This document shows positions 6,180 through 64,000 of a DNA stretch of 64,000 bases, piece after piece. Below the pieces are notes generated by a model. It made no database searches, was not told the DNA's origin, and saw only the letters and a list, made by a program, of their open reading frames with translations. Position 1 is the stretch's first letter, and each line of letters opens with the position of its first letter. Where the stretch lies: the NCBI GenBank assembly GCA_017416155.1, contig JAFQDE010000005.1, forward strand, positions 62,001 to 126,000. Reading direction: 5' to 3'. Origin of the DNA: Tyzzerella sp. Lineage in GTDB: Bacteria; Bacillota; Clostridia; Lachnospirales; Lachnospiraceae. The translations under genes and the position numbers were made by a program.

Positions 6180-6608
6180 CTATTTTCCAATACAAAGTGA
6201 ATCCAAATATCCCTGCAAAATAAAAACCGCAGCAATCTTGTCCACATACTTCTTGCGATTTTCTCTTCGGACATTGCTCTCTATAAGTGTTCTCTCGGCT
6301 TCAACGGTTGTAAGCCTCTCATCCCACATAATAACCGGAATGCCGATTCTTCTTTCAAGCATTGCCTTTAATTCTAAAGATTTTTCCGCACGTTCACCGA
6401 TTGTATTGTTCATATTTTTTGGAAATCCGAGTACAATCTTCTCTACTTTATATTCTTTTACAAGTTCCTCAATTCGCGCAAGCGTTTTTCGAAGCTTATT
6501 CTCTTCCTTGCGCTCAATCGTCTCAATGCCCTGTGCCGTAATACCTAATGGATCGCTGATTGCCACGCCGACCGTCTTAGATCCATAGTCTAATCCCATA
6601 ACTCTCAT
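6180..6608 (-). CDS. yqgF: YqgF/RuvX, putative Holliday junction resolvase or pre-16S nuclease
   Basis: 142 aa RNase H-fold nuclease. Catalytic acidic residues sit in [13 protein letters not shown] (first Asp), the [11 protein letters not shown] segment, [10 protein letters not shown], and a C-terminal Asp in [17 protein letters not shown]. The family was named Holliday junction resolvase-like, and E. coli YqgF is needed for 5' processing of 16S rRNA. Length is typical (about 140 aa). It begins 6 bases downstream of the ireB stop with only a weak ribosome site, suggesting translational coupling. Confidence 0.93.
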
Positions 6609-6614
6609 AATATC

Positions 6615-6878
6615 TTATTCCCAAGAATGATGTTTGATATACGTCTTTAACATCTCTTCTACCAATTCGTCGCGCTCCATCTTCATAATCAGACTTCTCG
6701 CCCCATTGTAACTTGTAATATAAGTCGGATCTCCTGACATAATATATCCGACCATCTGGCTCACCGGATTGTAGCCTTTTTCTCTCAGAGCCTGGTACAC
6801 AATTTCAAGAATATCTTTTGCTTGAATCTGTGGTCCGTTTTCTACTTGGAAAAATTGTGTGTTACTTAATTTGCTCAT
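6615..6878 (-). CDS. ireB: IreB family regulatory phosphoprotein
   Basis: 87 aa. Orthologue of IreB (DUF965), which in Enterococcus faecalis is phosphorylated on N-terminal threonines by the PASTA kinase IreK and tunes cephalosporin resistance. The conserved body is plain: NGPQIQAKDILEIVYQAL, REKGYNPVSQMVGYIMSGDP, and TYITSYNGARSLIMKMERDE. A Thr is present at residue 7 near the N-terminus. First gene of the ireB-yqgF-DUF1292-rnj-trmR-trhP run; the site AAAGGA lies before the ATG. No kinase or phosphatase gene of that pathway lies in the window. Confidence 0.93.
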   Translation of the reverse strand: MSKLSNTQFFQVENGPQIQAKDILEIVYQALREKGYNPVSQMVGYIMSGDPTYITSYNGARSLIMKMERDELVEEMLKTYIKHHSWE

Positions 6879-6936
6879 ATGCTCACGTCCTTTTATACTT
6901 CTTCATTCTTCATTCTAATATAAATAGTCATCAAAT

Positions 6937-8211
6937 TCAATGAATAATTTGCGAATGATTATCAATTCGAACATTTGTTAGTTGATTTTGCAAATTTTCT
7001 TCGGTTTGTAGTGCAATTTTGACATATTCTTTGGTATGTCCCACCCAAAAATCAGTCTCTTTTTTGGTGATTTTTTCCTCAAACAGTACTTCGACCTCCA
7101 TACCGATAAAACTCATTTCATACGCTTTTCTTTTCTGCTCATCCATCTCAAGCATGACGTTACTTCGCAAACTTTTAATCTGCTCCGGCACTTGATTTTC
7201 CATCACTGCCGCCTTGGTTCCCTGGCGCTTTGAGTATTTGAAAATATGTGTCTCATAAAAATTCACCTTGTCAACAAACGCCCTTGACTGTTCAAACTCT
7301 TCCTCTGTCTCTCCCGGAAATCCTACGATTACATCTGTTGTCAATGCAGGATTATCAAAATATTTGCGCAAAAGCTGACATTTCTCATAATATTCTTCGG
7401 ATGTGTATCTTCGGTTCATTCTGCGAAGGGTTTCATCACATCCACTCTGCAAGGAGAGATGAAAATGCGGACACATCTTTGGAAGTTCCGAAATCGTTTT
7501 CGCAAATTCTTCGGTAATAATTCTCGGTTCAAGAGAACCCAGACGTATTCGCTCAATACCTTCTACCCCATGGACCGCCAGAATGAGCGACAGCAAATCC
7601 TCATTTCCTAAATCCACACCGTAAGAACTCAAGTGGATACCTGTGAGAACAACCTCTTTGTATCCGTTGTTGGCTAAAGCTGTCACTTCACGGATAACAT
7701 CCTCTTTTGCACGGCTGCGAACACGCCCTCTTGCAAACGGAATAATGCAATAAGTACAAAATTGATTGCAGCCATCCTGCACTTTAATATAGGCTCTTGT
7801 ATGCTCTGCCGTCTTACTAAGATGCATCTCTTCGTATTCTTTTGTATGATTGATATCTATGACAGACTTCGGAGTATGCGTTTCCAATATCTCAATCAAG
7901 TCTTTTTTCTTATTATTGCCAATGATGATGTCTATACATTCATCCACTTCTCCATTTTCTTCCTGCGCCTGTACATAACACCCGGTAGCAACCACTATCG
8001 CATCCGGATTCAGCTTCTTTGCACGATGTAACATTTGGCGAGACTTCCTGTCTGCCATATTAGTTACGGTACAAGTGTTGATGATATAGATATCGGCTCC
8101 CTCTTTAAATGGTACAATCTCGTAACCGTGATTTTCCAGCATTTCCTGCATTGCCTCTGTTTCATATGCATTTACTTTACATCCCAAGTTGTGTAATGCA
8201 ACTTTCATCAT
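6937..8211 (-). CDS. mtaB: tRNA (N6-L-threonylcarbamoyladenosine(37)-C2) methylthiotransferase MtaB
   Basis: 424 aa radical SAM methylthiotransferase converting t6A37 to ms2t6A37 in tRNAs for ANN codons. The N-terminal domain has the three auxiliary-cluster cysteines (HNLGCKVN, NTCTVTN, ATGCYVQ). The radical SAM motif is CNQFCTYC, followed by the TGIHLSSYG and GFPGETEEEF motifs; a TRAM domain is expected at the end. The frame extends to an ATG at 8238, but ATG at 8211 is preferred: the site GAAAGGAC is about 9 bases before it and the family N-terminus starts there. Stands on its own, divergent from the HPr-like gene. Confidence 0.93.
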   Translation of the reverse strand: MMKVALHNLGCKVNAYETEAMQEMLENHGYEIVPFKEGADIYIINTCTVTNMADRKSRQMLHRAKKLNPDAIVVATGCYVQAQEENGEVDECIDIIIGNNKKKDLIEILETHTPKSVIDINHTKEYEEMHLSKTAEHTRAYIKVQDGCNQFCTYCIIPFARGRVRSRAKEDVIREVTALANNGYKEVVLTGIHLSSYGVDLGNEDLLSLILAVHGVEGIERIRLGSLEPRIITEEFAKTISELPKMCPHFHLSLQSGCDETLRRMNRRYTSEEYYEKCQLLRKYFDNPALTTDVIVGFPGETEEEFEQSRAFVDKVNFYETHIFKYSKRQGTKAAVMENQVPEQIKSLRSNVMLEMDEQKRKAYEMSFIGMEVEVLFEEKITKKETDFWVGHTKEYVKIALQTEENLQNQLTNVRIDNHSQIIH

Positions 8212-52967: not shown

Positions 52968-53004
52968 AAAACGGGAGCCTACCATATCGTATATGCTCCC
53001 GTTT
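52968..53004. terminator. bidirectional terminator
   Basis: Stem AAACGGGAGC/GCTCCCGTTT (52969-52978, 52995-53004) with a 16-base loop between the lipid kinase stop (52960, plus) and glf stop (53012, minus). Confidence 0.85.
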
Positions 53005-53011
53005 GTTATAT

Positions 53012-54160
53012 TCATCTCAACTTTTCTGCCAACTCCATCGCCTTCTCGACCATCACATCAATATTGTAATACTGATACTCCGCTAATCTTCCAAGCAAAT
53101 GAAAGTTTGGAATCTCTTCCACCTCTGCCTTATATTTGGCGAATAATGCATGATTCTCTTCGTTTGCAATTGAGTAATACGGAATCTGTCCGGCTTCTCC
53201 CGTATAAGCACTTGGATATTCTTTGGATATTGTCGTACCCTTACACTTCTGTCCGGTGAGATACTTATATTCTGTAATTCTCGTATAGTCTTGGTCTACG
53301 GTATAATTCACAACCGAATGTCCTTGAAAATCATCCTTCTCATAATATTCAAACACAAAATCCAAGGTGCGATACGGCAATCTTCCGTATTTGCAGTCAA
53401 AGAACTCGTCAATCGGGCCTGTAAAAATCACATCACCACCGAATTCTTCTCCTTGATATAGAACCTTACTGTCCTCTACGCGAAGCATATCCTTTGCTTC
53501 TTTGCCTAATTCTACTGTAATATTCTTATGCTCCACCATATTCTCAAACATCGCTGTGAAACCATGAAGTGGCACTCCCTGATACTTATCTGAAAAGTAA
53601 CAATTATCATAGGAAATGTTTACCGGAACTCTTGCTGTCACTGCAGGATCAATTTCCTCCGGCTTCTTCCCCCACTGTTTCATAGTGTAGTAGACATAAA
53701 TATTGTCGTATACGAACTTGCCAATCATCTGCAAATCCGCATCTTCATGATTCATAAGGTCTAGAATCGGCACCTTTGTACCCATGCCGTAAATGCAAAC
53801 TAATTTTTCTTCCAATTCCTTCGCGCGTTCCTCGCCGTATGCCGCCTTTAGGGTGTGGAGATTAAACGGAACCGGCATATATTGCCCATGCACATTGGCA
53901 ACCACTTCATGACGAAATGCATACCACTCTGTAAAACGAGATAAAAACTCATATACATTTTCTTTACTCGTATGAAAAATATGTGGCCCATACACATGAA
54001 TCAACATGCCATGTTCATCCTTCGTATCATAGCAATTTCCTGCAATGTGATTCTTCTTTTCAAGAATCAGTATCTTTTTCCCTTGCTCCGCGAGTTTACG
54101 TGCCACTGTGCATCCAGCCGTTCCCGCGCCGACTATAATTACATCATACATATTTTTCAT
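53012..54160 (-). CDS. glf: UDP-galactopyranose mutase
   Basis: 382 aa flavoenzyme making UDP-galactofuranose for surface glycans. FAD-binding GAGTAGCTVARKLAEQG, the HVYGPHIFHTS segment, active-site RVPVNISYDNCYFSDKYQG and TGPIDEFFDCKYG, then Arg in YRTLDFVFE. Lies one gene from galK-galT-galM, which can supply its UDP-galactose (with a GalE elsewhere). A second ATG 3 codons later is possible. No glycosyltransferases are adjacent. Confidence 0.94.
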   Translation of the reverse strand: MKNMYDVIIVGAGTAGCTVARKLAEQGKKILILEKKNHIAGNCYDTKDEHGMLIHVYGPHIFHTSKENVYEFLSRFTEWYAFRHEVVANVHGQYMPVPFNLHTLKAAYGEERAKELEEKLVCIYGMGTKVPILDLMNHEDADLQMIGKFVYDNIYVYYTMKQWGKKPEEIDPAVTARVPVNISYDNCYFSDKYQGVPLHGFTAMFENMVEHKNITVELGKEAKDMLRVEDSKVLYQGEEFGGDVIFTGPIDEFFDCKYGRLPYRTLDFVFEYYEKDDFQGHSVVNYTVDQDYTRITEYKYLTGQKCKGTTISKEYPSAYTGEAGQIPYYSIANEENHALFAKYKAEVEEIPNFHLLGRLAEYQYYNIDVMVEKAMELAEKLR

Positions 54161-54163
54161 CCT

Positions 54164-55234
54164 TTATTCCTCAAATTTTTCCTGTCCAATCTTTACATTC
54201 ACATGCTTTACATAGTTTTCAAAAGCCGCCGGAATCGGATAGTTTTTTTCCACTTCGTCCGGATGAATAAAAATCATATTCTCTGTGCAGGAGTGTTCTA
54301 GCTCATCCACGCGAATGCTGTATCCAATCATCTGCCATTCCACATGACTGAAGATATGTTTTGCCTCCCCTAGTGGTTTGATTCGAAGCGGCGCAAGACC
54401 AATCGTTCGACTATAGGCAAGTGCCTCCTCCTGCGAAAGTTCCCCCTCTATATTTGGTAATTCATAAAGGCCTGCTAGCAAGCCCCTCGACGGGCGTTTA
54501 CGAATCGCTACATTTTCTCCGTCTTTAAATATAAATACAGTTCTCTTTTCTATCTTTCTCGCTTTTGCCTTGCTCTTTACAGGGAGTTCTCCCTGCACGC
54601 CATGCTGTTTGGCATAGCATAGATGTGCCAACGGACATATGTCACACTTCGGCGCACCATTTGGCACGCATACAATGGCTCCAAGTTCAATCAGTCCTTG
54701 GTTAAAATCACAAGCTGCATCTATTGGAATAATCTCCGACAGTTGCTCTTCCACTTTCGTCTTCGTGCTCGCCTTCATGATATCATCATAACTTCCAGTA
54801 ATTCTGGAAATCACACGTAGTACGTTCCCGTCTACTGCCGGCTTTGGAATGCCAAACGCAAATGAACTAATTGCACCTGCTGTATAATTACCAATTCCAG
54901 TGAGTTTTCGAAGCTTCTCATACTCTCGAGGAAATTCACCATTATATTCTACCATAATCTGCTGTGCAGCCTTCTGCATATTGCGGACACGATTATAATA
55001 TCCTAGGCCTTCCCACAACTTTAAAAGTTTATCTTCCTCTACATTTGCCAAATGAGAAACCGTTGGAAGTGCTTCTAAGAATCTTGCATAAAAGGGTTTC
55101 ACTGCCTCCACTCTGGTCTGCTGCAACATAATTTCTGACACCCAGATTCGATACGGGTCATCGATGTTTCGCCATGGAAGTTCTCTTCTGTTTTCACGGT
55201 ACCATTTCACCAAAGGTTCAACTATTCGTTTCAT
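54164..55234 (-). CDS. mutY: A/G-specific adenine glycosylase MutY
   Basis: 356 aa, removes adenine mispaired with 8-oxoguanine. HhH-GPD domain with catalytic Glu in WVSEIMLQQTRVEAV, hairpin LTGIGNYTAGAISSFAFG and catalytic Asp in AVDGNVLRVISR. The Fe-S cysteines are C-x7-C-x2-C-x5-C (CVPNGAPKCDICPLAHLC), one residue wider at the first gap than in E. coli or B. subtilis. A C-terminal NUDIX-like 8-oxoG recognition domain follows. Ends 3 bases before glf and begins 2 bases after the amino-acid ATPase gene stop. Confidence 0.95.
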   Translation of the reverse strand: MKRIVEPLVKWYRENRRELPWRNIDDPYRIWVSEIMLQQTRVEAVKPFYARFLEALPTVSHLANVEEDKLLKLWEGLGYYNRVRNMQKAAQQIMVEYNGEFPREYEKLRKLTGIGNYTAGAISSFAFGIPKPAVDGNVLRVISRITGSYDDIMKASTKTKVEEQLSEIIPIDAACDFNQGLIELGAIVCVPNGAPKCDICPLAHLCYAKQHGVQGELPVKSKAKARKIEKRTVFIFKDGENVAIRKRPSRGLLAGLYELPNIEGELSQEEALAYSRTIGLAPLRIKPLGEAKHIFSHVEWQMIGYSIRVDELEHSCTENMIFIHPDEVEKNYPIPAAFENYVKHVNVKIGQEKFEE

Positions 55235-55236
55235 TC

Positions 55237-56013
55237 TTAAAGAACCTTTGCCAAGAAATCCTGAAGTCTTGGGTCCTTTGGATTTTCAAAGAATTCTCTT
55301 GGCTCATTTTCTTCTTTGATGACACCTTCATCGATAAATACCACACGATTTGCAACTTCTTTGGCAAATCCCATCTCATGAGTCACAACGACCATAGTCA
55401 TTCCTTCATTTGCAAGTTCCTTCATGAGTTCCAGAACTTCTCCTACCATTTCCGGGTCAAGTGCCGATGTCGGCTCATCAAATAAAATTACATCCGGATT
55501 CATGGCAAGTGAACGAATAATCGCAATACGCTGTTTTTGTCCGCCTGAAAGAGTTGACGGATAAGCATCTGCCTTCTCTTCAAGACCGATTCTCTTAAGA
55601 AGCGCCATTGCTCTTTCTTTCTCTTCCGTCTTAATATCCTTCTTGGTCTTCTGATTATCCGGATTCTCTTTATTCCACTTTTTTAGTGCCTTGCATCTCA
55701 CATGCACTGGTGCTAACATAATATTCTGCAATACTGTCTTGTTGTTAAATAGGTTAAAATGTTGGAACACCATTCCCATATGTTGTCTGTGTTCATTGAT
55801 ATCAACCTTCATGTCAGCGATATCCACACCTCTGAACATTATGCTTCCCCCTGTCGGATCTTCCATACAGTTGAGGCAACGAAGAAATGTACTCTTTCCG
55901 GAACCGGAAGCCCCGATGACTGCCACGATATCACCCTTATTGATGGTGATATCGATGCCTTTTAAAACTTCTATATTACCAAAGCTTTTTCTAAGATTAA
56001 TTACGTCTATCAC
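55237..56013 (-). CDS. polar amino acid ABC transporter ATPase (GlnQ-like)
   Basis: 258 aa from a GTG start. Walker [11 protein letters not shown]-loop MVFQHFNLF, signature LSGGQKQR, Walker [18 protein letters not shown], switch His [13 protein letters not shown]. An insertion of about 20 residues rich in Lys ([19 protein letters not shown]) sits between Q-loop and signature. GTG at 56013 has AAAGGAG before it and gives the family N-terminus ([12 protein letters not shown]); the ATG at 56049 lies deep in the permease gene and is less likely. Overlaps the permease end by 17 bases. Confidence 0.93.
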
Positions 56014-56707
56014 TTTTTCCAAGGCTCCTTTCCATAAGTCTGATTGCAAAACTGATAATCAGCACAAGTACAATATAGATAAGTGCCATAACGATATATG
56101 GAACCATAAATTCATAACTGTTAGAACCGATTACATTGAATGCTTTATATAAGTCTGCTGCACCAACGAAACTTACAACCGATGTCTCTTTGATGAGCGC
56201 GATGAATTCGTTGCCGAGTGTCGGCAGAATATTTTTCACTGCCTGTGGAATAACAATCTTCATCATTGTCGTTCCAAAACTAAGTCCAACAGAACGTCCG
56301 CCCTCCATCTGTCCGATATCAACCGACTGAATACCGCTTCGCATAATCTCTGAAATATATGCACCACTATTCAGACCAAACACCATCATGGAAACCTCAA
56401 CTCCATCCATCTTAATTCCCATAATTGGGAACAAAACATAGTAGAAAATCAGAAGTTGTACTACCATTGGTGTTCCACGGAACAATTCTACATAAAAACT
56501 ACAAATACCATTCAAAACACGTGGTAATAATTTGTACTTCGGAAGCACACGTACTGTCGCAATCAAAGTACCAATCAAAATACCTATAATCAAGCCGACA
56601 ATGGCTATCGTCAACGTGTTCTTTAAACCTTCCAAAACAGTTACATAACCGTTTTGTTCAATAAATATTTCTAAAAACCTGTCTATCTTCTTGTCAAAGT
56701 TTCCCAT
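55997..56707 (-). CDS. polar amino acid ABC transporter permease
   Basis: 236 aa with five predicted helices, HisM/GlnP family: [20 protein letters not shown] at the start, [19 protein letters not shown] after helix 2, and the EAA loop [21 protein letters not shown] for ATPase contact. A basic tail ([14 protein letters not shown]) is normal. Lies between the binding protein and the ATPase in one operon. Confidence 0.93.
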
Positions 56708-56730
56708 AAAATCTCCCTAATCATATCAGT

Positions 56731-56758
56731 AGGGTGTCACACAACCGTGTGGCACCCT
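56731..56758 (-). repeat. intercistronic stem-loop between binding protein and permease
   Basis: 12-bp arms 56731-56742 and 56747-56758, 4-base loop, one A-C mismatch in the minus-strand RNA, without a U-run. Sits in the gap of the operon, where such hairpins often stabilise the abundant upstream binding-protein message. Confidence 0.65.
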
Positions 56759-56773
56759 GAACTGTTTTCATTA

Positions 56774-57631
56774 CTATCTCATTTCATTGATTGCTGCTGC
56801 AATAGCTGCTGCCGGAGCTGAGTCGATAATAACATAATCGATGTTACCATTTAACATATCCTGGATTGCAAGAGAACCATTCTTGTAACCTTTTGTTGTT
56901 ACATCGTATCCCTCGAAATCCCAATCAGCATCACCTTCTGTGTAGAACTGACCTGTTGTTCCACTCTGAACACCAATCTTGCAAGTGTCATCTTTTTTAT
57001 TTAAGATATCTTCCACTGCTTTAGCATCTTTACAGTCATCAAATTCTGTGTTGTCAGATGGTACTACGATTTTTTGTGATGCGTTGTAATATGTAGAACT
57101 GAATTCCACATGTTCTTTTCTGTCTTCTTTTACTGTAAGACCTGCCATAGCAATGTCAGCCTTGTGCAGTCCAACTGATAAACATACTGCATCAAAATCC
57201 ATGTTTACAATAACTAATTCTTTTCCAAGTTTTTCTGCAAGAAGTGCTGCGATTTCCATATCGATTCCGTAGTATTTGTCACCTTCTTTATATTCGAATG
57301 GTGCAAACTCCGCATTTGTTGCAACTAATAATTGATCTTTTGCGCTATCCTCTTTTGCTGATGTTACCGCTACAGGTTCTCCATCACCAAAATAGTGATC
57401 ACAGATTTCATCAAATTTGCCATTGTCCATAATCTCAGCAATGAAATCATTTACTTGCTTCAACAATTCCGGTTGTGCCTTGTCAACACCAAAAGCATAC
57501 TCTTCCTTCGTAAGTTCAACATCGATAACCTTTGCTGTTACTACGTCATCTTTGTCTTCTGCATTGCCTCCACATGCAACCATAGATAACATAAGAGCTA
57601 CCACTAATAATACGCTTAATAATTTTTTCAT
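56774..57631 (-). CDS. amino-acid ABC substrate-binding lipoprotein, apparently circularly permuted
   Basis: 285 aa. Signal peptide with lipobox SMVAC (Cys20). The SBP_bac_3 body appears in rotated order: residues about 31-83 (TKEEYAFGVDK ... AEIMDNGKFDEICDHYFG) match the segment that normally ends these proteins, and residues about 101-285 match the usual start and middle (LLVATNAEFAPFEY, GIDMEIAALLAEKLG, AGLTVKEDRKEHVEFS with the ligand Arg171, GVQSGTTG, and VIIDSAPAA). The chain then stops at the second hinge. A linker of about 15 residues joins the old ends. Binds a polar amino acid by family. First gene of the operon; AGGAGG upstream. Confidence 0.9.
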   Translation of the reverse strand: MKKLLSVLLVVALMLSMVACGGNAEDKDDVVTAKVIDVELTKEEYAFGVDKAQPELLKQVNDFIAEIMDNGKFDEICDHYFGDGEPVAVTSAKEDSAKDQLLVATNAEFAPFEYKEGDKYYGIDMEIAALLAEKLGKELVIVNMDFDAVCLSVGLHKADIAMAGLTVKEDRKEHVEFSSTYYNASQKIVVPSDNTEFDDCKDAKAVEDILNKKDDTCKIGVQSGTTGQFYTEGDADWDFEGYDVTTKGYKNGSLAIQDMLNGNIDYVIIDSAPAAAIAAAINEMR

Positions 57632-57696
57632 AATCGATTCCTCCTAGATTTATAAATATTACTTTTATTTGCATAAAAATTCAATCGATATTCTTT

Positions 57697-57724
57697 ATAT
57701 TACACATGTTTTCCACTTTGTCAA
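57697..57724 (-). promoter_or_regulatory. promoter of the amino-acid transporter operon
   Basis: Minus strand TTGACA (57724-57719), 16-base spacer, TAATAT (57702-57697). It starts right behind the uppP stop; the leader is about 60 bases. Confidence 0.7.
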
Positions 57725-57730
57725 GTACTT

Positions 57731-58567
57731 TTATGCAAAAATTCCGGAAATTATAAAGTATCCCAGCACTAAAATACCCAAAACAATTCGATAGTAACCA
57801 AATACCTTAAAATCATTCTTCTTGATATATCCCATAAGGAACTTAATCGCAATAACTGAAACCACAAATGCAACGATGCATCCAACACTCAGCATAGCGA
57901 CTTCCATACCTGTAATTCCTGCTCCTTCTCCAAAAAACTTTAAGAGCTTAATTCCGCTTGCACCGAACATAACCGGAATTGCAAGGAAAAATGTGAACTC
58001 TGCCGCCACATATCTGGATACACCAAGAAGCAATGCTCCTAATATAGTTGCTCCTGAGCGCGATGTCCCCGGAATTAAGGATAACACTTGGAACAAACCA
58101 ATAAAAAGTGCTGTCTTATACGAAAGTTCTGATAACTTTGTCACACTTGGTTCTGCCTTCTTATTCCAATTTTCCACCCAAATAAAGAGCACACCATACA
58201 CAATCAGCATAATAGCAACCACAATATAGTTGTGGAAATGCTCCTCCATCCAATCATCAAACAGAATTCCGAGAACTGCCGCCGGAATGCACGCCACAAC
58301 AACCTTCATCCAAAGCTGTATTGTGTGTACCTTTTGATTTCTTGTCTTCTTCTTCGAAAATGGATTCAATTTATTAAAATACAATACTACCACAGCCATA
58401 ATCGCGCCAAGCTGTACTACAACATTAAACATCTCTTTGAATGCATCGCTTGCATTGAGTTTGATAAATTCATCCACAAGAATCAAATGCCCCGTACTGC
58501 TAATCGGCAACCACTCTGTAATTCCCTCTACAAGACCTAAAATAATAACTTTAAAAATTTCAAACAT
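57731..58567 (-). CDS. uppP: undecaprenyl-diphosphatase UppP (BacA)
   Basis: 278 aa membrane enzyme that recycles undecaprenyl pyrophosphate to the monophosphate carrier for cell wall synthesis; overproduction gives bacitracin resistance. Eight-helix pattern with the active-site motifs [15 protein letters not shown] and [10 protein letters not shown]. Start at ATG 58567 (GAGAGGAAG upstream) instead of 58597. Single gene, divergent from the hydrolase gene. Confidence 0.95.
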
Positions 58568-58669
58568 TGTAAACACTTCCTCTCTATTTCTTAACAAATT
58601 ATCGTTCTTCTTCGTATTTATGCATACTTTGTACCTTCTTTATCATACTATACAGCATTATAACAAAAT

Positions 58670-58698
58670 TTGCATTCAAAAGCAATTTATAGTATAAT
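58670..58698 (+). promoter_or_regulatory. promoter of the cell-wall hydrolase gene
   Basis: TTGCAT (58670-58675), 17-base spacer, TATAAT (58693-58698); about 25 bases of leader follow before the ATG at 58730. Confidence 0.75.
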
Positions 58699-58729
58699 AT
58701 TAAGGCACGTCACTAAGAAAGGACTTTGT

Positions 58730-59782
58730 ATGAGATTAAGAAATACTAGACTACATGTTCGTATCAGTGCATTATTTCTGTCGTTCGTACTATTTTTACT
58801 CTCTGTCTCTCCGGCCTACGCTGCAAAGACTGTTGATAAATCAAAAAGCGAAACTGCAGAATTAAAATCAGAGTTGTCCGATATGGAAAAAGAACTGAAA
58901 TCTTTAGACAAAGAATTAAACCAGATTCTTTCTCAGATTAAGAAAACAAACTCTGAGCTAAAAAAAGTCAGAGAAGAACTTGCCATTGCAAAAGGACAAG
59001 AGCAAGCACAATACGAATCTATGATGACACGAATTAAATATATGTATGAAAATGGCAGTTCTACTATGTTAGAAATGCTTCTTTCTTCGAAATGTATGGC
59101 GGAATTTGTCAGCAAGGCTGAATATTTCTCTGCAATCACGGATTATGACCGCAAATTACTTGCTGAATATAACGCAATCCGTGAAACCGTTGCTGCAAAT
59201 GAAGCAAAATTGACAGAATCCCAAGAATATTTGAAGACACTGCAAAAGAAACTTGTATCTAAAGAAAAGACATTAAAAGACAAGATTACTGCAACTTCTG
59301 CTGAATTGATACAAAAAGCAAAATTAGAAGCACAAAAAGCCGAATCAGAAGCTAACAAAGAAGTAACTCCAATTGTTCCAGAAAAAGACCCTGTCTTTAA
59401 CAAGGCCCCTGCTACCACCAATGGTTCTGCCGTCTCTTACACAGAGGAAGATGTTATACTCTTAGCCGGGCTCATTGAATGCGAAGCAGGTTCAACCAAT
59501 TACGATGCACTGCTCGCCGTCGGTGCTGTTGTCGTCAATCGTATGAAGCACAGAAATTATCCGGATACCGTCTATGGAGTTATTAAGCAACCAAAACAAT
59601 TCCCTCCTGCCACAAATGGTAAGTTGGATAGGATACTTGCTAGAGGAACAAAACCTTTATGTGAGAAAGCTGCCAGGGATGCTCTAAACGGTAAAACAAA
59701 TGTAGAAGACTGCATCAGTTTTCGTGCTGCCAGTAGCGGACGTCCGGGAACAATTATCGGAGATAATGTTTTCTTCTTTTAA
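58730..59782 (+). CDS. secreted SleB/CwlJ-type cell-wall hydrolase with coiled coil
   Basis: 350 aa. Signal peptide (about 1-32, ending SPAYAA), a long coiled coil (about 40-215, PcsB-like heptads such as LKSELSDMEKELKSLDKELN), a Pro-rich linker, and a C-terminal Hydrolase_2 domain: LAGLIECEAGSTNYDALLAVGAVVVNR is the SleB/CwlJ catalytic start with Glu. The family cleaves spore cortex or vegetative peptidoglycan; the PcsB-like coiled coil hints at control by a membrane complex at division rather than a germination role. Start at ATG 58730 after AAAGGAC. Confidence 0.9.
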   Translation: MRLRNTRLHVRISALFLSFVLFLLSVSPAYAAKTVDKSKSETAELKSELSDMEKELKSLDKELNQILSQIKKTNSELKKVREELAIAKGQEQAQYESMMTRIKYMYENGSSTMLEMLLSSKCMAEFVSKAEYFSAITDYDRKLLAEYNAIRETVAANEAKLTESQEYLKTLQKKLVSKEKTLKDKITATSAELIQKAKLEAQKAESEANKEVTPIVPEKDPVFNKAPATTNGSAVSYTEEDVILLAGLIECEAGSTNYDALLAVGAVVVNRMKHRNYPDTVYGVIKQPKQFPPATNGKLDRILARGTKPLCEKAARDALNGKTNVEDCISFRAASSGRPGTIIGDNVFFF

Positions 59783-59787
59783 TACAC

Positions 59788-59828
59788 AAAACCTCGATTT
59801 TGGTTGTATTTCCATATATCGAGGTTTT
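59788..59828. terminator. bidirectional terminator
   Basis: 11-bp stem AAAACCTCGAT (59788-59798) against ATCGAGGTTTT (59818-59828) with a 19-base loop, between the hydrolase (plus) and truA (minus) ends. Confidence 0.85.
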
Positions 59829-59833
59829 ATTAT

Positions 59834-60571
59834 TTAATCATATTTAATTTCCATGAGCATAAGACCGTGCGCCGGTGCCGTGACCCCTGCTGCCTTTCGG
59901 TCTTTTGCCTCCAATATCTCTTTTACCCTTTCAGGCTCGTAAAATCCGCGTCCGACACGAATCAATGTACCCACAATAATACGTACCATATTATAAAGAA
60001 AACCATTGCCGGTAATACGAATTGTAATCTCATCTCCGTTTGTCAGAATATCGAGTGCCGTAATCGTGCGCACGGTATTCTCCACATCCGTTCTCACATT
60101 ACAAAAGCTCACAAAATCATGCTCTCCTACCAGATAAGAAGCCGCCTTTCGCATTTTCTCAATATCTAACACATAAGAGACAAAATAATTCGTTAATCGC
60201 TTTGTCGGAACCGGAATCCTTGTGTTGATAATGTGATACTCATAAGTCTTACTGCAGTCACAGTATCTCGGATGAAAATCCGATGCAACATCTTCAGACT
60301 TCACAACCACAATATCCTCCGGCAATCTCTGGTTAAGCGCTACCGCAATCTTCTCTGTCGGAATTGTGGTCGCTGTGTCAAACACAGCCACATTTCCCAT
60401 CGCATGAACACCGGAATCCGTGCGACTCGCACCAATCACCAAAATATCTTCGCCGGTTAATTTCTGCAAGGTGTGATTTAGTACTTCTTCAATTGTAATG
60501 CCGTTGGGTTGCACCTGCCACCCACAGTAATTCGTGCCATCATAGGCAATCGTTAACTTTACACGTTTCAT
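59834..60571 (-). CDS. truA: tRNA pseudouridine(38-40) synthase TruA
   Basis: 245 aa. Catalytic Asp52 in GASRTDSGVHAMGN, N-terminal KLTIAYDGTNYCGWQVQ, and the C-terminal GNGFLYNMVRIIVGTLI motif. Modifies U38-40 in the anticodon stem. Overlaps the ecfT stop (60568-60571), the usual ecfA-ecfT-truA order of Firmicutes. Confidence 0.96.
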   Translation of the reverse strand: MKRVKLTIAYDGTNYCGWQVQPNGITIEEVLNHTLQKLTGEDILVIGASRTDSGVHAMGNVAVFDTATTIPTEKIAVALNQRLPEDIVVVKSEDVASDFHPRYCDCSKTYEYHIINTRIPVPTKRLTNYFVSYVLDIEKMRKAASYLVGEHDFVSFCNVRTDVENTVRTITALDILTNGDEITIRITGNGFLYNMVRIIVGTLIRVGRGFYEPERVKEILEAKDRKAAGVTAPAHGLMLMEIKYD

Positions 60572-61371
60572 ACAACTCTATCGATCACTACTGCAAATAC
60601 CACATATAGAACTGTGATTGCATAAGCGATATAATCCTTCCTCTCATATACCAAGGGCTTCATCTTCGTTCTACCCTCACCTCCGCGATAACATCTTGCC
60701 TCCATCGCCATCGCAAGATCATTCGCACGACGGAACGCTGATACAAAAAGCGGTACCAGAATCGGAATCATGGCTTTTGCCTTCTGAATAATATTGCCGC
60801 TCTCGAGGTCTGCTCCCCTCGCAAGCTGTGCCTTCATAATCTTATCCGTCTCCTCCAGTAATATCGGAATAAAGCGGAGTGCAATGGACATCATCATCGC
60901 AATCTCATGCACCGGAAATTTGATTTTCCTAAGTGGCCAGAGTAGTTTCTCGATACCATCTGTAAGTGCATTCGGCGTTGTTGTAAATGTCATGAGCGAC
61001 GAACCTAGTATCAGGTAAATCAAACGGATAGTCATGAACACCGCCGTTCGAAGTCCTTCATCTGTCACTTTGAAAATCCAAAGCGAAAATAACACCGTAC
61101 CTGTTTTTGTCAGAAACAAATTAAAGAGCACCGTTATCACAAGTAACATTACAACTGCCTTAAGTCCCTTGACGATAAACTTAAACGGAACCTTTGAGAT
61201 TCGAATCACTGATGCCAGAAATAGTGTAGCGATGATATAACCGCCAATACTTTGAAACAGAAACAGCGAAACCAGATATATGAGCGTACACACAATCTTG
61301 ACTCTCGGATCCAGACGGTGCAATCTACTGTTTGATGGGTAATACTGCCCGATTGTAATATCTCTAATCAT
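60568..61371 (-). CDS. ecfT: ECF transporter transmembrane protein EcfT
   Basis: 267 aa with about five helices; the scaffold joining the ATPases to interchangeable vitamin-binding S components. N-terminal YYPSNSRLHRLDPRVKI is the family mark; the coupling helices carry Ala-Arg-Gly motifs, one seen as AQLARGADLESG, the other as MAMEARCYRGGEGRT. No S component lies in the window. 12 bases downstream of the ATPase gene. Confidence 0.95.
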   Translation of the reverse strand: MIRDITIGQYYPSNSRLHRLDPRVKIVCTLIYLVSLFLFQSIGGYIIATLFLASVIRISKVPFKFIVKGLKAVVMLLVITVLFNLFLTKTGTVLFSLWIFKVTDEGLRTAVFMTIRLIYLILGSSLMTFTTTPNALTDGIEKLLWPLRKIKFPVHEIAMMMSIALRFIPILLEETDKIMKAQLARGADLESGNIIQKAKAMIPILVPLFVSAFRRANDLAMAMEARCYRGGEGRTKMKPLVYERKDYIAYAITVLYVVFAVVIDRVV

Positions 61372-61383
61372 ATAGTCTCCAAT

Positions 61384-63141
61384 CTATTTTTTGAGTACCT
61401 TTGAAATCGTTTCCACTGCTTCCGCAATGGTAGTAGCCTCTGTATCTACAGGGAAGCCTTTCTTTGCAAGTTCATGCATCATGTATGTCACCTGAGGTGC
61501 TGCAAGACCTACTTTTTCTAATTCCTCGTAATGAGCGAACACCTTCTTCGGCTCATCATCGTACATCTTGCTTCCTTTATTCATAACCACAATTCGGTCT
61601 ACATACTTTGCAATATCTTCCATACTGTGAGAAACAAGCACAACCGTCAGATTGCCCTCTTTTTGCAGATATGCAATCTGTTCCAATATCTCATCTCTTC
61701 CCTTCGGGTCAAGTCCGGCTGTCGGCTCGTCCAAAACAAGCACCTTCGGCTTCATGGCAAGCACACCGGCAATTGCCACACGGCGCTTTTGCCCACCGGA
61801 CAAATCAAATGGCGAAACCTCGTAATATTTCTCCGGAAGTCCCACAAGTTTTAATGCCTCTATCGCACGCTCCTTACATTCCTCCTGAGAAAGACCTTGG
61901 TTTTTCGGTCCAAAGCAAACATCCGTAAGAACGTCTGTCTCAAAAAGCTGATGTTCCGGATATTGGAAGACAAGACCTACGTTATTGCGTAATTCCCGTA
62001 AGTTATATTTCTCCCTGTAAATGTTCTCGCCCTTATAATAGATGTCCCCATCGGTCGCCTTGATAAGCCCATTCAAATGCTGAATCAAAGTAGACTTTCC
62101 GGAACCGGTGTGCCCGATGATTCCGATAAACTCACCCTCATAAATGTCAAGACTGATATCCTTTAAGGCATGCTTTTCAAATGCATTGCCCGGGCTGTAA
62201 ATATAATTGATATGGTCTACCTTTAAAAGCGGTTGTCCTACGTTCGATAGCGATTTCTTTGCTTCGCTTCCAAGTACTTGCGTTTTTATATCTGTGTTTT
62301 TACATTCGCTTAAAGCTGACAATAATTCCTCTGTTGTTAGAATCCCCTTCGGAATCGGATAACCTTTTTTGCGAAGTTCATAGGCAAGCAATGTTACCTG
62401 CGGAACGTCCAGTCGGTATTCCTTTAGAAGTTCTACCTGGCTAAACACTTCCCTAGCCGTTCCTTCAAGTACCACGTGACCTTTGTCCATCACAATCACT
62501 CGGTCTGCACCCACTACCTCTTCCATATAGTGAGTAATGAGAATAACCGTTACTTTCTCTTTCTTTCGAAGTTCCTCCACTGTTCTTAAGACTTCTCTAC
62601 GTCCATTTGGATCCAGCATTGCTGTTGGTTCATCTAGAACAATGCATTTTGGACGCATCGCAACAACTCCTGCGATTGCCACTCTCTGCTTCTGCCCGCC
62701 GGACAACTTATTTGGGGAATGATGACGATATTCTATCATTCCAACTGCTGATAAACTTTCTTCCACCCGTTGCCATATCTCTTCTGTCGATACACCGAGA
62801 TTCTCCGGACCAAATCCGACATCCTCTTCCACTATCGTTCCAATAATCTGGTTGTCTGGATTCTGGAACACCATGCCGGCTGTTTGACGTACATTCCAAA
62901 TATTCTCCTCCCGACTTGTATTCTTACCATCTACCCACATTGTTCCTTCTGTCGGAGACAGAATTGCATTCATATGCTTTGCAAGCGTAGATTTACCGGA
63001 ACCATTGTGTCCTAAGATGGCAATGAACTGTCCCGGTTCTATATCTATATTGACCTCGTCGATGGCACGACGTGTCCCGATGACATTACCTTCATCGTCA
63101 AATTTTTTATAATCAAAAACAAGATTTTTGGTTCTAATCAT
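61384..63141 (-). CDS. ecfA: fused ECF transporter ATPase (EcfA1 and EcfA2 in one chain)
   Basis: 585 aa holding two complete ATPase units. First: Walker [10 protein letters not shown] (44-52), Q-loop [14 protein letters not shown] (146-150), Walker [12 protein letters not shown]. Second: Walker [10 protein letters not shown] (343-351), Q-loop [15 protein letters not shown] (447-451), [11 protein letters not shown]. Each is followed by the EcfA C-terminal motif ([14 protein letters not shown] and [14 protein letters not shown]). The linker of about 45 residues (260-305) is in frame. In most Firmicutes these are two genes. Drives vitamin uptake with EcfT. Confidence 0.95.
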
Positions 63142-63164
63142 GCTTACGACTATCCTTTCACGTT

Positions 63165-63491
63165 TTATTTATCTTCTATCTTAACAATCTTTAATTCATA
63201 CCCCAAAGCATACATCGTATTGCAAAAAGATTTTAACGTAGGACTGTGTTCCTTACTTTCCATACGAGAAATTGCCTGCTGTTTATTACCTGTCAGTTCA
63301 GCTAATTGACGTTGCGAAATCTTCAGTTCTTTACGGATGACAATCATCTCATCAACCAATTGCTTTCCTCGATCTTCCACATAAAAAGTAGGTGCTGGCA
63401 TACCTTTTCTTTCCGACAAAGGAATGTTCCCTTTTTCTATAGCAATTGCTTCCAATAAACCCTGCATTGTTTCATCAAAAAACTTGCTCAT
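63165..63491 (-). CDS. higA: XRE-family antitoxin (HigA-like)
   Basis: 108 aa. C-terminal [41 protein letters not shown], with the usual final strand [14 protein letters not shown]. The N-terminal part ([14 protein letters not shown]) probably binds the toxin. The start is ATG 63491, 7 bases after AAGGAGG; a first ATG at 63497 is too close to the site. Overlaps the toxin stop. The palindrome in the promoter is its likely operator. Confidence 0.85.
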
Positions 63492-63493
63492 TG

Positions 63494-63823
63494 TCATTCC
63501 TCCTTCAAAAACTTGATAACCGCTTTAAATGCTTTCTTTTCGTCCTCTGTTAAATCATCTTTTTCATTCTTAGTATATACATTAACAAAATATATTGTTT
63601 CTTTCAACTCAATATCAACATAAAGGACTCTGCCGCCACTACGTTTGCCTGTATTTTCCAGTGGTATACGAATTTTTCTCAATCCCCCAGTACCTTGAAT
63701 AGTATCACCTGCTTTCGGATTTTTCAATAATATGTTTTGCAATTCTCGCAAACTCTCGTCTGATAATCCTAATTCTTTCCATTTCTTTGTAAACTGTGGT
63801 ACTTCTATAAATGTTCGATTCAT
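63494..63823 (-). CDS. higB: RelE/HigB-type toxin
   Basis: 109 aa. Basic RelE-fold protein: FTKKWKELGLSDESLRELQN, GTGGLRKIRIPLENTGKRSGGR, VDIELKETIYFVNVYTKNEKDDL, KKAFKAVIKFLKEE. Pattern of the HigB/RelE mRNA interferases that cut mRNA in the ribosome. Toxin before antitoxin is the HigBA order. Start ATG 63823 (AAAGGAC upstream) rather than 63850. Confidence 0.85.
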   Translation of the reverse strand: MNRTFIEVPQFTKKWKELGLSDESLRELQNILLKNPKAGDTIQGTGGLRKIRIPLENTGKRSGGRVLYVDIELKETIYFVNVYTKNEKDDLTEDEKKAFKAVIKFLKEE

Positions 63824-63854
63824 TATCTTCTGTCCTTTCCTATGTTCCATTTTG

Positions 63855-63883
63855 AATATACAACAAATTTGTTGTCATGTCAA
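63855..63883 (-). promoter_or_regulatory. promoter with operator palindrome of the higBA-like operon
   Basis: Minus strand TTGACA (63883-63878), 17-base spacer, TATATT (63860-63855). A perfect 16-base palindrome ACAACAAATTTGTTGT (63860-63875) lies in the spacer and touches the -10: where an antitoxin would block RNA polymerase. Confidence 0.85.
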
Positions 63884-63900
63884 TTCGTTTTAAAAAACTG

Positions 63901-63927
63901 TTGTATTTTTCAAAAACATGATATAAT
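63901..63927 (+). promoter_or_regulatory. promoter of the cyclophilin gene
   Basis: Extended -10 TGATATAAT (TATAAT at 63922-63927) with a weak TTGTAT at 63901-63906; AAAGGA lies about 11 bases before the ATG at 63967. Confidence 0.6.
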
Positions 63928-63966
63928 ATGTCTCGTAGATTAGAAAACAGAAAGGACATAAAAACT

Positions 63967-64000
63967 ATGGCAAACCCAATTGTAACATTTGAAATGGAAA
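63967..64000 (+). CDS. peptidyl-prolyl cis-trans isomerase (cyclophilin), 3' partial
   Basis: Only 11 codons are in the window: MANPIVTFEME. This matches the start of clostridial cyclophilins (PpiB-type), which go on with a Gly-rich beta strand. Promoter and ribosome site before it are good, so the gene is real; the family rests on this short match. Confidence 0.65.
   Translation, partial: MANPIVTFEME

Follow-up and report, generated by a model that had tools for sequence, protein, structure and literature searches.

The gene at positions 56774-57631 of the minus strand encodes an amino-acid-binding lipoprotein of 285 residues, whose blocks run in the order C-N-M in place of the usual N-M-C (open reading frame and profiles). 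Here N denotes the N-terminal part of lobe 1, M lobe 2 and C the C-terminal part of lobe 1, and the window is the whole 64,000-nucleotide stretch of DNA that was analysed. Judged by sequence, the circular permutation is real, and this substrate-binding protein (SBP) is type II by descent and new by topology. It is very probably a working lipid-anchored SBP of a polar-amino-acid ABC importer, permuted by a cut in lobe 2, with topologies that are exchanged as operons.

The gene and its operon

The gene is preceded by a ribosome-binding site, AGGAGG, recognized by inspection at 57640-57645. Behind it, and like all features described here on the minus strand, lie a single gene for an amino-acid ABC permease (55997-56707; PF00528) and one for an ABC ATPase (55237-56049; PF00005), with only 66 nt between the SBP stop and the permease gene. 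The ATPase reading frame overlaps the end of the permease and opens with TTG within the permease gene; the true start of the ATPase is probably further inside the frame. Two flanking genes served as markers of the site, namely uppP (BacA; 57731-58597; PF02673) and a mutY-like gene (54164-55234; PF00730 and PF14815). With both permease and ATPase present and the clamp residues invariant, the proposal of the initial annotation that the operon is intact and the protein probably functional holds as far as sequence can tell.

A hairpin is found between the SBP and permease genes (56731-56758; -21.2 kcal/mol over 70 nt). The stretches downstream of C-N-M genes (n=135) average -14.4 kcal/mol versus -9.6 for shuffled sequences, and 52 of the 135 lie 6 kcal or more below the shuffles, such a hairpin being common and not universal. 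A search of window positions 53000-64000 against Rfam gave no match above the gathering scores.

Block order of the binding protein

Profiles for each of the three blocks and for the full chain were built from 14 normal-order SBP_bac_3 relatives. Lobe 2 and the two parts of lobe 1 all resemble SBP_bac_3 and type II SBPs in sequence, although the usual type II chain order (N-terminal lobe 1, lobe 2, C-terminal lobe 1) is replaced by C, N, M. We looked for a match in normal order, which the initial annotation had named as evidence against its proposal of a circularly permuted SBP_bac_3 lipoprotein, and found the full profile matching in swapped order, with positions 2-165 at residues 101-283 and positions 166-214 at residues 33-81. 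In its natural order the chain scores 164.8 and 38.0 bits as two pieces. When the chain is rotated, a single match over profile positions 2-214 appears, which among the rotations tried is best when the chain begins at residue 93 or 99 (211.7 bits) and nearly as good when it begins at residue 83 (211.5 bits), with nothing lost and nothing doubled at the joint.

The block profiles agree with this arrangement. The N-block profile matches residues 101-190 (114.7 bits), the lobe-2 profile residues 215-280 (49.1 bits) and the C-block profile residues 34-81 (51.3 bits, i-E 4.5e-18 in a one-protein search). A normal C-terminal block, likewise named beforehand as contrary evidence, was searched for with the C-block profile; there is no second match in the 285-residue protein (next best -2.8 bits), and the C-terminus is without such a block. 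Aligning the two parts separately to Pfam SBP_bac_3 (PF00497), as had been recommended, places residues 101-215 on profile positions 1-98 and an N-terminal piece of about residues 11-82 on positions 97-131. The PDB sequences of the solved relatives 4zv1 and 5t0w also align in swapped order, the moved piece on its own giving weak matches (i-E 0.056 and 0.018, respectively). Hence, while the open reading frame taken alone does end without a C-terminal block, as it would if residues 31-83 were an extra N-terminal domain on a truncated, unpermuted SBP, the N-terminal piece is exactly the profile stretch that is missing (166-214 after 2-165), solved relatives align to it with their C-terminus and rotation restores one match, which makes an extra domain extremely improbable.

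Occurrence of the permuted orders

Among 61 near genomes, full-length relatives occur in the window's own genome and in 8 of the 60 others, the latter at 57-71% identity. Homologues with the same order in Lachnospiraceae, the existence of which the initial annotation had suggested checking, were indeed found: profile A1 (E ≤1e-60) matches in 40 of 397 family genomes and in 10 of 295 genomes of the order, 22 of 291 of the class and 2 of 299 of the phylum, these samples overlapping and each including the window's own genome. Both matches in the phylum sample belong to the window's family, and one of the 22 in the class sample (G783, locus L199) groups with normal-order proteins in free SBP trees. 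Of 542 confirmed named loci, the best 80 were inspected, and all 80 carry a C-N-M reading frame; these best 80 derive from Lachnospiraceae and from other Clostridia and Bacillota bins, with named genera such as Acetatifactor, Agathobacter, Butyrivibrio, Dorea and Roseburia. In a set of 139 C-N-M reading frames, which includes repeats of the same gene (about 120 are distinct), the permease is next in 131, fused in one and absent in 7, with 4 of these 7 sitting at the end of their locus. The fused case (L099, 4001-5602) is a type-A SBP joined in frame to its permease, giving a chain of 534 residues.

A draft assembly of 56 contigs and 84% completeness, such as that from which the window comes, may raise the suspicion of an assembly or gene-model artefact or of a decaying gene; yet the same order recurs in unrelated assemblies, the moved block is strongly conserved across homologues and the type-A matches are free of inner stops among the matches listed, so that this explanation has next to no probability.

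A second permuted order also exists. In a first survey, 30 loci comprised 14 with N-M-C, 9 with C-N-M and 7 with M-C-N. The M-C-N proteins have the first strand of lobe 2 (GlnBP about 90-95) at their C-terminal end; their cut is therefore also in lobe 2, and the anchor is again moved onto that lobe. Full-length M-C-N matches were counted by hand in 81 of the 397 family genomes, that is, in 96 genomes minus 15 set aside for partial matches, for a tandem (G227) or for a split gene (G241). In the latter, at the same place as locus L201, an M-C-N SBP-permease gene is split into two reading frames within the C block (L239), by a frameshift or an assembly error. The reading frame is 500-600 residues long in 27 of the 81, the size of an SBP-permease fusion, and seven M-C-N frames were confirmed as such fusions. 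A further M-C-N permutation, in another SBP subfamily, occurs at 6514-7354 of locus L070, where the lobe-2 block is weak (9.2 bits).

With these profiles, 121 of the 397 sampled family genomes hold a permuted protein (40 and 81, none shared). In none of the 397 were the two permuted orders found together, against 8.2 expected (P 6e-5, kinship ignored). Among the 146 genomes, out of 153, with listed matches, 72 have the normal order only, 49 M-C-N only, 24 C-N-M only and one a tandem; in this count G086, which had looked full-length, was recoded by hand as normal order and G227 as tandem. The exclusion is not absolute, since G200 holds a normal protein as well as a divergent type A. Permuted SBP genes of these kinds could easily be mis-annotated as truncated.

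Topology, ligand clamp and predicted structure

The cut site and lobe limits were placed by alignment to E. coli GlnH, with the GlnBP domain limits given in PMC7400645 used to assign lobes and hinge. The chain begins with a lipoprotein signal peptide (residues 1-20; 57572-57631; model helix 2-18), the lipobox of which ends in C20, invariant in 74 aligned rows. There follows a variable tether (residues 21-32; 57536-57571) that is gappy in alignment A1 and has a mean pLDDT of 57 over residues 21-30. Residues 33-40 (57512-57535; model strand 33-35) correspond to the last strand of lobe 2 (GlnBP about 174-180), residues 41-45 (57497-57511) to hinge crossover 2 (GlnBP 181-185) and residues 46-83 (57383-57496) to the moved C-terminal part of lobe 1. 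Behind a linker (residues 84-99; 57335-57382), the N-terminal part of lobe 1 (residues 100-180; 57092-57334) leads through hinge crossover 1 (residues 181-185, GlnBP 85-89; 57077-57091) into the remainder of lobe 2 and the new C-terminus (residues 186-285 and stop; 56774-57076). The chain stops after VIIDSAPAA as had been noted, with about 10 and not 14 further residues.

The cut (GlnBP 173|174) thus separates the last helix of lobe 2 from its last strand. By the GlnBP limits both hinge crossovers are kept, which rules out an early idea that a single crossover was left between the lobes. The usual nesting is inverted, lobe 1 having become uninterrupted in the chain and lying within lobe 2. Since the cut lies inside lobe 2, the lipid anchor shifts from lobe 1 to lobe 2; the initial annotation was correct that the anchor leaves lobe 1, although the moved block, to which it had assigned the anchor, itself belongs to lobe 1.

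The linker of about 16 residues bridges the old termini, which both lie on lobe 1. A linker at this place had been proposed as a low-complexity segment at about residues 85-100; its role in joining the old termini is borne out and its low complexity is not, as it is conserved, with G84 invariant in the 74 aligned rows and P86, V89, S91, A92, D95, K98 and D99 each at 90% or more. Also invariant in these rows are F109, F146, G164, T166, R171 and D270, which are equivalent to F13, F50, G68, T70, R75 and D157 of GlnBP. The clamp for the alpha-amino-acid moiety (GlnBP Arg75, Thr70, Gly68 and Asp157) is therefore present as R171, T166, G164 and D270, while D10, K115 and G119 of GlnBP are replaced by N106, Q222 and T226. 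With the crossovers and most of the clamp retained, the protein is still expected to close around an alpha-amino acid and to hand it to the permease.

The full-length model has a pLDDT of 90.3 and a pTM of 0.77, and lobe 1 modelled alone in C-then-N order, as a monomer, reaches 93.1 and 0.88. The N part of the lobe-1 model (about model residues 59-145) superimposes on GlnBP-like structures at 1.4-2.0 Å over 86-89 residues in many rows. Against solved relatives, the full-length model reaches TM scores (by target length) of only 0.41-0.59 in 49 of 50 rows and 0.28 in the row of 6h30, with rmsd values of 4.1-7.8 Å, and the angle between the lobes is therefore unsure or different. The predicted packing of residues 33-83 draws on the alignment, the strand pattern and the lobe-1 model. 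OpuAC matches to the lobe-1 model (123-127 residues aligned) were set aside, as a continuous lobe may match by pseudo-symmetry.

Some class II SBPs swap their C-terminal part between molecules, for example the arginine-binding protein ArgBP of T. maritima. By analogy, the moved block might complete a neighbouring molecule in a domain-swapped dimer, with no intramolecular permutation, and the full-length pTM is moderate; but a linker of about 16 residues is of a suitable length for an intramolecular joint, and isolated lobe 1 is confidently predicted as a monomer. We consider the swapped dimer unlikely, and favour the permutation within a single chain.

Three topologies at one chromosomal site

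The site was compared in ten genomes of the window's genus drawn in the near-genome search. Each has its SBP, permease and ATPase genes as an operon flanked by uppP and mutY, and the extra DNA in front of mutY amounts to at most about 1.7 kb. The SBP has the C-N-M order in G000, G002, G004 and G009, the M-C-N order in G007 and G008, and the N-M-C order in G001, G003, G005 and G006. Identity to the window's permease is 82-85% in the three further C-N-M genomes and 42-47% where the SBP has one of the other orders. Whole operons have therefore probably been exchanged, as opposed to single genes being reshuffled in place; normal and permuted versions would replace one another as units at this site. 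In a midpoint-rooted tree of the flanking genes, M-C-N species are nested inside C-N-M species, and a single C-N-M clade is rejected (p 0.005), which suggests serial replacement at the site and hence similar function. Because all three topologies occupy the uppP-mutY site in one genus, they look interchangeable there.

The initial annotation had proposed an altered docking of the permuted protein on its permease. The anchor does shift to the other lobe, and between the permeases of the window's lineage and those of the other orders the identity is only about 42-51%. Against this, the permeases of two other C-N-M loci (L199 and L205) share 63-71% identity with the permeases of three unpermuted relatives, and the M-C-N permease of L070 (partial) is 64% identical to that of the normal-order locus L001; furthermore, a lone permease gene suggests that the permease is a homodimer, both faces of which would be equivalent for docking. 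An altered docking is thus improbable.

Three topologies at one orthologous site in one genus amount to a natural experiment on the tethering point and chain order in ABC import. They provide matched protein sets for tests of flytrap closure, folding and docking, as well as naturally permuted scaffolds for biosensors.

Number of permutation events and origin

In a tree of 65 rows built from the reordered blocks by a quick method, the three orders require 9 changes. A single clade of all M-C-N rows is rejected (p 0.0003; p 0.0036 when L070 is left out), whereas one of the 16 core M-C-N rows is not (p 0.24). The L070 protein is sister to the normal-order L001 of the window's genome with support of 99, both rows being flagged for odd letter make-up. 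For C-N-M, two origins had been expected (type A; L199 with L200); one clade is not rejected with either the SBP (p 0.46) or the permease (p 0.55). Permutation has thus probably occurred three times or more, once for C-N-M and at least twice for M-C-N, unless some of the changes are reversals, which would themselves also be permutations.

The window protein probably arose when a binding domain was duplicated in tandem and both ends were then trimmed. Such a route is plausible because tandem SBPs exist and the permuted run finds its best PDB match across the boundary where the two tandem domains of GlnPQ (6h30) meet. Among the chains with several domains, one of 973 residues (L188, in G227) holds three normal-order binding domains and a permease, and one of 1149 residues (L202, 588-4034) reads M-C-N-M-C-N followed by permease and ATPase, with an inner normal-order unit according to Pfam. 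No tandem intermediate of the window's own lineage was seen.

SBPs of monoderms are usually lipoproteins, and the order might have been selected for tethering, a lobe-2 anchor favouring capture or docking in these cells, along the lines suggested for Tp0684. Both permutation classes, with different cuts, put the termini and anchor on lobe 2, and the rejection of a single M-C-N clade implies that this order probably arose more than once. On the other hand, normal-order lipoproteins occupy the same site in sister species, two normal-order reading frames are fused to the permease via lobe 1, a single C-N-M clade stands unrejected and neutral trimming of a tandem accounts for the pattern equally well. 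Selection for tethering is accordingly possible but doubtful, and we hold only tentatively to the broader picture in which type II SBPs of Clostridia were permuted several times, at two positions that are both in lobe 2 and with the anchor shifted from lobe 1 to lobe 2 on every occasion, because a lobe-2 tether is useful, and in which normal and permuted operons then compete for one conserved site.

Comparison with known systems

We found no description of permuted amino-acid (type II) SBPs, or of topologies swapped at one site, in the open-licence PMC literature, and the portion of PMC2861598 on OpuA that was consulted contains no term beginning with "permut-". PfVFT1 of Plasmodium (PDB 5jkq), a eukaryotic protein with 12% identity to the window protein, may share the permuted order. 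It is known here from match ranges and scores, and the range alone proves nothing about its order because the normal-order structures 3vv5 and 9e2b also start near model residue 52.

The window protein shares its lobe sequences, its ligand clamp and an operon with permease and ATPase with GlnH and SBP_bac_3 (PF00497), and differs from them in its C-N-M order, its cut in lobe 2 and the linking of the old termini. The run from C through linker to N resembles the junction in the SBD1-SBD2 tandem of GlnPQ (6h30), which offers a model for its origin, although the tandem domains are complete and in normal order.

According to PMC4990184, Tp0684 (TpMglB-2) is a naturally permuted type I sugar-binding lipoprotein ("Type Ic / Cluster Bc"), this type of permutation is said to occur in Gram-positives too, and a link between permutation and tethering is suggested. 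Both proteins are circularly permuted, lipid-tethered binding proteins of ABC systems. Tp0684, however, has a type I fold and a sugar ligand and gained a fourth crossover, whereas the window protein is type II by sequence, resembles amino-acid SBPs by structure and keeps the two type II crossovers.
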